From assembly GCA_022447225.1 (NCBI GenBank), contig JAKVAZ010000010.1, forward strand, positions 124,001-188,000: DNA of 64,000 nt. The letters are read 5' to 3'. The notes beneath the pieces are model-generated. The model saw only the letters and a program-made list of their open reading frames with translations, was not told the DNA's origin and ran no database searches. The DNA comes from Fuerstiella sp. (GTDB lineage Bacteria > Planctomycetota > Planctomycetia > Planctomycetales > Planctomycetaceae). The position numbers and the translations under genes are program-made. Below, one piece after another: positions 1,912 through 5,045 of the stretch. The number at the start of each line of letters is the position of its first letter. The first letter of the stretch is position 1.

Positions 1912-1944
1912 ATCACCCCGACTGCTGCCTGTGGTCGGGGTGAT
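1912..1944 (+). terminator. Hairpin downstream of sufD, probable operon end
   Basis: An 11-bp perfect inverted repeat (ATCACCCCGAC and GTCGGGGTGAT) is separated by an 11-nt loop. It lies between the sufD stop and the next gene. There is no clear U-tract after it, so it may act as a 3' end stabiliser or a weak intrinsic terminator. Confidence 0.6.
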
Positions 1945-1991: not shown

Positions 1992-2876
1992 ATGACAGAT
2001 CAGATCGAACACGATTTCCGACCGGTAAATCCCGCCGGTGTGGCGACTCAGTTTATTACTGACAGTACCATTGAAATCATCGATGGCTTTGTCCCTTCCG
2101 CCGCACTCCGGCACGTACTGTTTGATTTCGATGGTACGCTCAGTCTGGTCCGTGAGGGGTGGACTGAGGTCATGGTGCCAATGATGGTGGAATACCTCCT
2201 CGAAACTGGTACAGACGAAACCAGCGAACACCTGTCCGGGATCTGTGCCGAATTCGTTATGCAGCTTACCGGTAAACAGACGATTTATCAGATGATTCGC
2301 CTCGCGGAGGAAATCCGGCAGCGCGGCGGGAGACCACTTGAGCCTGCTGCATACAAGCACGAATATCATAAGCGACTGATGCAGCGTATCGAATCCCGTC
2401 GCGAACGGTTGCGGTCCGGTCAGACACCCCCGACAGAAATGGTGGTGCCAGGCAGTTTTGAACTGCTCAATCGGCTGCGTGATCGCGATGTTCAGCTGTA
2501 TCTGGCCAGTGGAACCGACGAACAGTATGTTCGTGAAGAAGTTGATTTGTTGCAACTGGGGGAATACTTTGGCCCTCACGTTTATGGTGCACAGGAAGAC
2601 TACAGGTCTTTCTCCAAAGCCCAGGTGATTCAAAGGATTCTGACGGAACACAGTGTCGATGGCGCGACTCTTCTGGGGTTTGGTGACGGATACGTTGAGA
2701 TTCAGAATGTCCGGGATGTAGGTGGCACGGCCGTTGCCGTTGCCAGTGATGAAACGGAGCGCAGCGGCCGACCCGATGCGTGGAAGCGTGACAGATTGAT
2801 TGCAGCCGGGGCCCATGCCGTCGTTCCCGACTACCAGGACGCCGGTCGGTTAGTCGAATGGTTGTGGAACATTTGA
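1992..2876 (+). CDS. HAD-superfamily hydrolase (probable sugar-phosphate phosphatase)
   Basis: A 294-residue protein with the haloacid dehalogenase catalytic motif I, FDFDGT, at about residues 44-49, where Asp45 would be the nucleophile and Asp47 the acid/base. Motif II is LYLASGT and motif IV is GFGDGYVE. A helical cap lies between motif I and motif II. HAD enzymes of this size usually remove phosphate from small metabolites, often sugar phosphates. It is the first gene of a tight three-gene set: the next gene begins 13 bp after its stop, and that gene overlaps a PfkB-type sugar kinase. This suggests a shared carbohydrate-phosphate pathway. The exact substrate cannot be read from the sequence. 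About 40 residues precede motif I, an unusual N-terminal extension for this family. Confidence 0.85.
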   Translation: MTDQIEHDFRPVNPAGVATQFITDSTIEIIDGFVPSAALRHVLFDFDGTLSLVREGWTEVMVPMMVEYLLETGTDETSEHLSGICAEFVMQLTGKQTIYQMIRLAEEIRQRGGRPLEPAAYKHEYHKRLMQRIESRRERLRSGQTPPTEMVVPGSFELLNRLRDRDVQLYLASGTDEQYVREEVDLLQLGEYFGPHVYGAQEDYRSFSKAQVIQRILTEHSVDGATLLGFGDGYVEIQNVRDVGGTAVAVASDETERSGRPDAWKRDRLIAAGAHAVVPDYQDAGRLVEWLWNI

Positions 2877-2889
2877 CAGGAAACAGGAA

Positions 2890-4002
2890 ATGCCACACCC
2901 GCAACTGGACCGTTTCCAGGTTCGTATGGACTCGTTGACCACTCGCACGAACAAAAAACAGATCGAACACGATCATGTTTCACCTGATGATCCCTGCCCG
3001 GAGCTGTCTGATTTGGCTCAGCGTCTGATTGCGGACACTGTTCGACGGATTCAGAACGCACGAGCTGCCGGCCGTCCTGTGGTTGCAGCCTTTGGTGCCC
3101 ATGCAATCAAAAACGGACTGGGACCGGTCTTTCTGAGGCTGATTGAACAGGGCTGGTTCACTCACCTGGCTACTAACGGTGCAGGCGTCATCCACGACTG
3201 GGAATTTGCCTGGCAGGGACAGAGTTGTGAGCACGTCGGCCCTATGGTCAAAGAAGGAAAATTTGGTAACTGGCAGGAAACCGGTTTCAATATCAATCTG
3301 GCACTCAACGTAGGAGCATTCGAAGGCAGAGGCTACGGGGAATCGGTCGGAGCGATGATTGAAAATGAGGGTCTTGATATTCCGGAGGCCACGGATCTCG
3401 AAGACCTGATCCGAAAACAGGCATCGTTCGATCCTCATCAGGTGGCCGCTGCTGCTGACCTGCTGGGCATTATTAAAACATTCGGTCTGGTTGCCGGACG
3501 TCTTGAAATCCCTCATCCATGGAAACAGTACAGTGTCCAGGCAGGAGCATTTCGACAGGGGGTTCCATTTACAAGTCATCCAATGATCGGTCACGACATC
3601 ATCTACAATCATCCCATGAATCACTGTGCTGCTTTAGGGCGGACTGCACAGCGAGACTTTCTGACGTATGCACAAACGATCAGCCGGCTGGATGGCGGAG
3701 TGTATCTGTCGATCGGGTCGGCCGTGATGAGCCCTATGATTTTTGAAAAGTCTCTGTCCATGTCGCAAAATCTGGCAATTCAGGACGGGAGGCACATCGA
3801 CGGCCATTACATTCTGGTAAGTGATCTGGCCAAATCAACCTGGGACTGGAGCCAGGGGGAGCCGCCGGAAAATGATCCGGCCTACTATCTGCGCTACAAC
3901 AAATCGTTCAGCCGAATGGGCGGTACCATGCGATATCTTGAGGCGGACAATCGGGATCTGTTGCTGAATCTTGTGCATCAGCTGGGAGAATCGGAGCCGT
4001 GA
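2890..4002 (+). CDS. Conserved protein resembling deoxyhypusine synthase; function unknown
   Basis: A 370-residue protein that I do not recognise with certainty. The stretch VVAAFGAHAIKNGLGP followed by ATNGAGVIHDWE resembles, by eye, the Rossmann-like core of deoxyhypusine synthases (glycine/alanine-rich strand, then a TxGA-x-xHD-like motif). A second glycine-rich part, GGVYLSIGSAVMSP, lies near residue 275. The GGGxPKH region that carries the catalytic lysine in true deoxyhypusine synthase is not visible, so the same reaction is unlikely. There is no signal peptide or membrane segment, so it should be cytoplasmic. A purine-rich AGGAAACAGGAA precedes the ATG. Its stop overlaps the kinase start by 4 bp, which points to translational coupling. 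A role in processing a sugar or sugar phosphate is an inference from the neighbours only. Confidence 0.6.
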   Translation: MPHPQLDRFQVRMDSLTTRTNKKQIEHDHVSPDDPCPELSDLAQRLIADTVRRIQNARAAGRPVVAAFGAHAIKNGLGPVFLRLIEQGWFTHLATNGAGVIHDWEFAWQGQSCEHVGPMVKEGKFGNWQETGFNINLALNVGAFEGRGYGESVGAMIENEGLDIPEATDLEDLIRKQASFDPHQVAAAADLLGIIKTFGLVAGRLEIPHPWKQYSVQAGAFRQGVPFTSHPMIGHDIIYNHPMNHCAALGRTAQRDFLTYAQTISRLDGGVYLSIGSAVMSPMIFEKSLSMSQNLAIQDGRHIDGHYILVSDLAKSTWDWSQGEPPENDPAYYLRYNKSFSRMGGTMRYLEADNRDLLLNLVHQLGESEP

Positions 4003-5045
4003 GTTCACTGCTGAGTCCTGAGCGTCTGAAATCACTGGTCGAATGTTTTTCTGACTGTCGAATTGCTGTTGTGGGTGACTTCTTTCTGGACAAATATCTG
4101 GACATTGATCCGTGTCTGGAAGAACCAAGTGTGGAGACCGGTAAGCCAGCCCGCCAGGTGGCGTCGGTTCGTTGTTTTCCTGGTGCAGCCGGTACTGTTG
4201 TATCGAATCTGAGTGCACTGGGCGCGGGAACACTGCATGCCGCCGGATTCACTGGTGACGATGGTGAAGCGTGGGAGCTGCGACGCGGGCTGACGGCAAT
4301 GCGATGTTCAACCGAACACCTGCATGTCGTACCCGAACGATTCACCCCGACCTATACCAAGCCACGCAACATGAGTGTCAGCGGACTCGACGGCGAGTAT
4401 TCGCGAATCGACATCAAAAATCGTCAGACAACTCCGACAGAGACAGAGCATGCGATCATTGCGTCTATCACAGACCTTGTCTCTGAAGTGGATGCTGTGA
4501 TCGTGATGGATCAGGTGGAAGCTCGGAATTGCGGAGCTGTCACAGCGATGGTTCGGGAACATCTCGGGACGTTGGCCGAAAATAATCCGGATGTGATCTT
4601 CTGGGCCGACAGCAGACGCCGAATTCGCGAGTATCGAAATGTGATTACGAAGCCAAACGAATTTGAACTGACCGGCAATGACGATCCTGTGCCTGGAGAT
4701 ACGGTCGATGCAGCTGAACTGCAGAGTGCAGCTGCTCAGCTGCGTACGAAGACCGGTGCTCCGGTCTTCGTGACCTGTGGCGCCAACGGAATGTTCGTGA
4801 CAGATCCGCAATGGACTGCCGTTCCCGGCATTCGGCTGACCGGAGAAATCGATACCACGGGTGCAGGCGACAGTGTGACCGCGGGCTGCGTGCTTGCTTT
4901 GTGTTCCGGCGCATCGTGTGAACAGGCAGCAGTGGTTGGCAATCTCGTTGCCTCAGTCACTGTCCGGCAGCTGGCCACCACCGGTACGGCCTGTTCATCT
5001 CAACTCGGACTCTGCCTTCAAACCTGGCTGGAACAAGTCGGCTGA
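3999..5045 (+). CDS. PfkB-family carbohydrate kinase (RfaE/HldE-like)
   Basis: A 348-residue ribokinase-fold kinase. The N-terminal segment IAVVGDFFLDKYLDI resembles the RfaE/HldE kinase domain, which phosphorylates heptose 7-phosphate. The PfkB signature near the C-terminus, DTTGAGDSVTAG, contains the catalytic Asp and the anion hole. The start is a GTG inside the stop of the previous gene (GTGA overlap), so the two are translationally coupled. HldE-type enzymes normally carry a cytidylyltransferase domain or act with GmhA/GmhB. None is seen here, so the substrate is probably a different sugar or sugar phosphate. It is the last gene of the three-gene cassette; no terminator is obvious after it. 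Confidence 0.85.
   Translation: MSSLLSPERLKSLVECFSDCRIAVVGDFFLDKYLDIDPCLEEPSVETGKPARQVASVRCFPGAAGTVVSNLSALGAGTLHAAGFTGDDGEAWELRRGLTAMRCSTEHLHVVPERFTPTYTKPRNMSVSGLDGEYSRIDIKNRQTTPTETEHAIIASITDLVSEVDAVIVMDQVEARNCGAVTAMVREHLGTLAENNPDVIFWADSRRRIREYRNVITKPNEFELTGNDDPVPGDTVDAAELQSAAAQLRTKTGAPVFVTCGANGMFVTDPQWTAVPGIRLTGEIDTTGAGDSVTAGCVLALCSGASCEQAAVVGNLVASVTVRQLATTGTACSSQLGLCLQTWLEQVG

Follow-up and report, generated by a model that had tools for sequence, protein, structure and literature searches.

We describe a three-gene cassette near one end of a 64,000-nucleotide stretch of DNA (the window) from the planctomycete Fuerstiella sp. (contig JAKVAZ010000010.1, positions 124,001 to 188,000), in which a HAD phosphatase (HAD), a deoxyhypusine-synthase-like middle protein (MID) and a PfkB-family kinase (KIN) form a real functional unit. 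On balance we favour reading this trio as a conserved sugar-phosphate module that would resemble the upper part of the ADP-heptose pathway in its logic without being that pathway; it probably forms a small sugar pathway, still to be worked out. The computed evidence consists of the linkage and co-occurrence of the three genes, fusion of KIN to HAD, association with a sugar isomerase (SIS) gene, the fold that MID shares with deoxyhypusine synthase (DHS) and ArgZ, and catalytic motifs that are complete in both HAD and the PfkB kinase. An earlier sequence-only reading of this DNA had proposed a new pathway here: its observation of the cassette is confirmed, its interpretation is partly supported, and the new-pathway reading appears consistent with everything found.

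All three genes are complete, intact open reading frames on the forward strand: HAD (1992..2876, 294 amino acids; assigned from Pfam, conservation, an AlphaFold2 model and fold matches), MID (2890..4002, 370 amino acids; from NCBIfam, alignment, model and fold) and KIN (3999..5045, 348 amino acids; from Pfam, NCBIfam and conservation). The 13-bp spacer between the first two on the same strand (CAGGAAACAGGAA, 2877..2889) contains a sequence that could plausibly serve as the MID ribosome binding site, and the KIN start overlaps the MID stop, GTG and TGA lying within GTGA. Both junctions are as the sequence-only reading had described them, and the motifs that it quoted are present: FDFDGT in HAD, GAHAIKNGLGP and TNGAGVIHDWE in MID, and DTTGAGDS in KIN. 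We take the three to be real genes because they have Pfam or NCBIfam matches and homologues in other genomes, the latter at up to 95% identity.

That the trio belongs together is apparent from its distribution. Statements on presence and absence, here and below, rest on searches of whole genomes, in this case the genome of the window and its relatives, 59 in all. The three genes occur together in 25 of these; pairwise, 25 genomes have both MID and HAD (2 and 3 discordant), 26 both MID and KIN (1 and 3), and 28 both HAD and KIN (0 and 1). Since these genomes are related to one another, the small p-values of the pairings make the evidence look stronger than it is. Repeated co-occurrence, which the earlier reading had named beside a DHS-type fold as support for its proposal, is therefore found. 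The trio is contiguous in the window's genus and in other planctomycete families. We further compared 80 MID loci, the nearest among at least 581 relatives, so that proportions among them are no census. At 34 of these loci, mostly from other phyla (Bacteroidota, Lentisphaerota and Spirochaetota among them), KIN and HAD are a single fused protein of roughly 634 amino acids (KIN at residues 1-330, HAD at 350-630) beside MID; the fusion makes the order of the two steps directly testable. In at least three genomes with a lone MID (G020, G022, G025), HAD and KIN adjoin each other elsewhere.

MID belongs to the NCBIfam GSU2086 family, NF052581 (314 bits, cut-off 250, E 1e-93; relatives score 384 and 386 bits), a family spread over about ten or more phyla; a search of phage records returned no MID. 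The family is itself uncharacterised, with no assigned function, so the match does not place MID in an already characterised enzyme family. Our literature search found no functional paper on the trio, on the KIN-HAD fusion or on the family of MID, GSU2086 being named only in a transposon-sequencing (Tn-seq) table (PMC5585712). Unlike the family's namesake, the window protein has about 50 additional amino acids (residues 160-208, missing from the short form in the alignment), and its neighbours are HAD and a separate kinase rather than hldE and gmhA. In Pfam, MID matches nothing at E up to 0.1, the DHS family PF01916 included, and a PF01916 search of its own genome gave no match at 1e-10.

An AlphaFold2 model of MID built from 20 relatives (mean predicted local distance difference test score, pLDDT, 92.3) has a predicted DHS-type fold: its top matches, tied at Z 17-18 over 210-270 residues (Foldseek, VIA-align), are deoxyhypusine synthases and AgrE/ArgZ (cyclodeaminase domain). 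The Foldseek value for DHS is 5e-7, DHS 8put gives Z 17.9 and rmsd (root-mean-square deviation) 4.1 over 268 residues, and AgrE 6lrh gives Z 17.8, with about 17.7 for the AgrE/ArgZ domain. This bears out the DHS-like core that the sequence-only reading had guessed from two short motifs. The resemblance to DHS covers 250-268 residues at Z about 17-18 and extends to NGAGxIHDxE, which resembles the DHS NAD site, whereas identity is only about 10-12%, PF01916 is not matched, there is no eIF5A context, and a profile-profile comparison against the bacterial DHS sequences of relatives found no match (E 0.09). AgrE/ArgZ, whose C-terminal ornithine cyclodeaminase (LOR/SDH) domain is PF21570, is also reached by sequence: a MID profile search of Protein Data Bank (PDB) sequences matched it at E 3e-5 over residues 15-112, profile-profile comparison with ArgZ-like sequences gave a partial match (probability 78, residues 45-112), and relatives of MID score 30.0, 30.3 and 32.8 bits against PF21570 (gathering cut-off 27), the window MID itself not being listed. 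As a single sequence, MID found no match among PDB sequences. With AgrE/ArgZ the sequence similarity is confined to about residues 15-112, there is no arginine dihydrolase part, and the gene context differs. The earlier reading had seen no DHS lysine motif, and indeed none was identified in MID; a lysine, K287 within a GSAxxxPxxxxK segment, is nonetheless nearly invariant (at least 98% of 107 aligned rows, lipopolysaccharide (LPS)-linked paralogues among them). The other polar residues kept at that level are H71, N96, H102, D103, E105, E114, H230, D236, D256, N294, D312, Y332 and R335.

KIN matches Pfam PfkB at 6e-19 (69 bits, cut-off 25.8), and at least 98% of rows retain its catalytic GAGD aspartate, D291. 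Its sequence points to a distinct subfamily whose nearest named family is TIGR02198, the HldE/RfaE kinase domain. HAD matches the Pfam families Hydrolase and HAD_2 (Pfam HAD match at 4e-11) and has a complete catalytic set, with D45/D47 in motif I, S173 in motif II, K209, and GDG at 231-233 (D232) together with E236; at least 98% of 60 rows share all four motifs. Its AlphaFold2 model (pLDDT 91.5) places a helical C1 cap at residues 58-142, between motifs I and II. A search of PDB sequences with HAD gave no match; by structure the nearest folds are AlnB, the alnumycin P phosphatase, and beta-phosphoglucomutase (Foldseek), along with other C1-capped phosphatases, although HAD shares only 17-21% identity with the first two and has other partners. 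We rejected GmhB as an identity for HAD on account of this cap and because no GmhB-type NCBIfam family was matched at E up to 0.1; GmhB is a HAD of subclass III, without a large cap. GmhB structures are missing from the HAD fold matches listed, an absence that we do not use as evidence. The HldE/GmhB logic that the sequence-only reading invoked thus holds for the kinase, whose closest family is TIGR02198 even if far under its cut-off, but not for the phosphatase.

The same reading had counted GmhA as lacking, and this did not stand: a GmhA-like SIS isomerase is part of the wider module, one SIS protein of which scores 153 against a gmhA cut-off of 209. After the trio itself, its gene is the next commonest partner, at 21 of the 80 loci. 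Three planctomycetes (G003, G046, G050) have SIS-HAD-MID-KIN runs, SIS lies beside KIN-HAD in G020, and a Chloroflexota plasmid encodes HAD-MID-KIN-SIS with gaps of 2-3 bp. The genome of the window has a single SIS_2 gene, on another contig (L135 8978-10705, G000:C6) and followed by a ROK kinase; in a relative (L048), close orthologues of this SIS and ROK pair adjoin MID-KIN. MID also occurs in other company. In Geobacter the genes run hldE, GSU2086, gmhA, and insertions in them reduce fitness on electrodes to a similar extent (-3.1, -3.2 and -3.7; PMC5585712). A surface-sugar cluster on a Solidesulfovibrio plasmid contains a nucleotidyltransferase-kinase gene followed by MID and then SIS. MID is the only component that the HAD/KIN, HldE and nucleotidyltransferase-kinase settings all have.

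The two plasmids merit a word of their own. On Chloroflexota plasmid plas-ZRK (CP069395.1, L191 1-12231), the four genes stand with DeoC, two Gfo/Idh/MocA dehydrogenases and an ABC transporter in an apparent sugar-utilisation operon, which is useful for guessing the substrate. On plasmid pDCAR1 of Solidesulfovibrio carbinolicus (L190 6462-7991), the HldE-like fusion that adjoins MID and SIS is reversed, nucleotidyltransferase first and kinase second.

How might these proteins work together? GmhA, HldA and GmhB catalyse established steps of the ADP-heptose pathway, and our proposal is built by analogy to them. The likeness lies in a kinase nearest the HldE/RfaE kinase domain, a phosphatase accompanying it, a GmhA-like SIS partner, and MID paralogues of Geobacter and some planctomycetes that adjoin hldE; the differences are other substrate-side motifs in KIN, a C1-capped phosphatase in place of GmhB, an added DHS-fold protein, and a genome without the HldE nucleotidyltransferase. 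In the proposed sequence, the GmhA-like SIS, encoded in trans here beside the ROK sugar kinase, would convert between a ketose phosphate and an aldose phosphate. KIN would add a second phosphate to the latter, with C1 as the most likely position, and the first, distal phosphate would be stripped by HAD to leave a sugar 1-phosphate. On one of the intermediates, MID would perform an NAD-dependent and overall redox-neutral hydride step, by which the sugar may be oxidised, rearranged or epimerised, and reduced. We infer the order of the steps, the specificity for C1 and the use of NAD from these comparisons.

Several observations weigh against this proposal. KIN scores 124.5 bits, far under the TIGR02198 equivalog cut-off of 345, and in its substrate-side motifs it departs from the HldE kinases of relatives, with ExSxET for RISPEAP, DQxE for SDYxKG and DSR for DPxxG, GAGD being retained. 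At 37 of the 80 MID loci KIN and HAD are absent within 2.5 kb, and 16 of those 37 have 4 kb or more of flanking sequence on each side. Window-type SIS genes are common in relatives whether or not the trio is present, and many genomes that lack it have one (MID versus SIS, p = 0.07); because the genomes are related, p-values overstate independence. NAD use by MID is predicted from its fold and the NGAGxIHDxE motif. The name GmhA-like calls for caution, since NagS, a SIS protein for which a putative phosphoheptose isomerase was the template in structure solution, catalyses a different reaction as a GlcNAc-6-phosphate dehydratase (PMC12680351).

The alternatives differ in what they make of the partners. 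Were this heptose biosynthesis proper, KIN would be a diverged HldA and SIS a GmhA, the product an envelope heptose 1-phosphate or modified heptose, and MID an HldD-like epimerase or other heptose modifier. MID paralogues, mostly in a separate clade, do sit in clusters of LpxK, MID, HldE and a heptosyltransferase: these lipid A/LPS clusters with a diverged MID run LpxK-MID-HldE-GT9 (L140 9283-14226; L141 5589-10439) or LpxK-MID(-GT9) (L144 6575-9761, with GT9; L143 7231-9458 is a further LPS-linked locus), and in Geobacter the MID paralogue stands beside hldE and gmhA. None of the five genomes with LPS-linked MID (G041, G043, G051, G055, G058) has an HldD above cut-off, an absence that hints only tentatively at replacement of HldD by MID, since many HldE genomes without HldD also lack an LPS-type MID. 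Against heptose biosynthesis, the HldE nucleotidyltransferase domain (TIGR02199, rfaE_dom_II) has no match in the window's genus (G000, G001, G002; genome about 97% complete), the presence of the trio among relatives is independent of HldE (p = 1), and 19 of 25 trio genomes carry an HldE nucleotidyltransferase besides KIN. The trio is therefore not simply the LPS heptose pathway, and ordinary heptose biosynthesis is rejected as the full answer for this genome, which lacks that domain and whose KIN falls under the family cut-off; the heptose explanation as set out above we regard as somewhat unlikely. Slightly less probable still is a catabolic route, in which a sugar released from glycans would be phosphorylated by ROK, isomerised by SIS and converted by KIN, MID and HAD to a central metabolite. 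Neighbours in Bacteroidota and Spirochaetota fit it (a LacI regulator, ROK kinase, SSS symporter, AGE-type epimerase, and GH92 and GH38 mannosidases), as do the four Chloroflexota genes, which lie behind those for a sugar ABC transporter, for a Gfo/Idh/MocA dehydrogenase and for DeoC. The mannosidase loci are not independent, however, because they come mostly from related Bacteroidota genomes, such neighbours are absent from the window and from other planctomycetes, and the Geobacter and Solidesulfovibrio modules lie in biosynthetic clusters.

Two further explanations turn on single proteins, and we consider both improbable. HAD could be a phosphomutase of the beta-phosphoglucomutase type, primed by a sugar bisphosphate that KIN makes, as its nearest folds, AlnB and beta-phosphoglucomutase, would allow; yet the C1-capped fold is about equally shared with many phosphatases (a pyrophosphatase, YniC and the MtlD phosphatase domain, all at Z 17.6-20.6), and a 1:1 fusion to the kinase fits a sequential pathway better than catalytic priming. 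Alternatively, MID could act on an amine, in a pathway for an amino sugar phosphate or one that joins an amine to a sugar aldehyde. Its characterised near fold relatives, DHS and the AgrE/ArgZ cyclodeaminase, use NAD on amines (spermidine and ornithine), the conserved K287 could form an imine, and amino-sugar kinases are found among the ROK relatives. The kinase and isomerase partners, though, are of heptose type and not of GlmS or Nag type.

Returning to the sugar-phosphate module, its role may vary between lineages: the Bacteroidota neighbours and the Chloroflexota operon favour catabolic use in some, while the gene settings in Geobacter, in Solidesulfovibrio and beside LpxK point to synthesis of envelope sugars in others. 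More tentatively, and with rather less confidence than in the module itself, we suggest a widespread and undescribed sugar pathway in which a DHS-fold, NAD-dependent GSU2086 enzyme would work on sugar phosphates with an HldA-like kinase, a C1-capped HAD and a GmhA-like isomerase, making or degrading a sugar new to these bacteria. A sugar role for MID, if true, would be new chemistry for the DHS fold, whose relatives of known function act on amines. GSU2086 matters for growth of Geobacter on electrodes, yet its family is without a function, and the recurring kinase, phosphatase and isomerase partners give a short list of proteins for mixing in vitro.

Around the cassette, SufB/SufD-type genes lie upstream and a zinc-type dehydrogenase gene downstream. 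Between the sufD-like gene and HAD, folding of the strand revealed an inverted repeat (1912..1944, no strand assigned) with a stem of 14 pairs and a 5-base loop, lacking a T-run on the forward strand; the surrounding 96-base region folds better than shuffled sequence (z -2.65). The base composition of the trio is similar to that of adjoining genes and so gives no sign of recent transfer. Elsewhere, MID lies near an alanyl-tRNA synthetase gene, HAD and KIN not being nearby, in Hydrogenedentota-type genomes (L051, L069, L075, L077, L081, L099). Finally, one genome (G030) that has no HAD or window-type SIS matches, and only a weak KIN match, carries tandem short or split MID-like frames (L145 7381-11006 and L146 6800-7947), which look like copies that were duplicated and are decaying or divergent.

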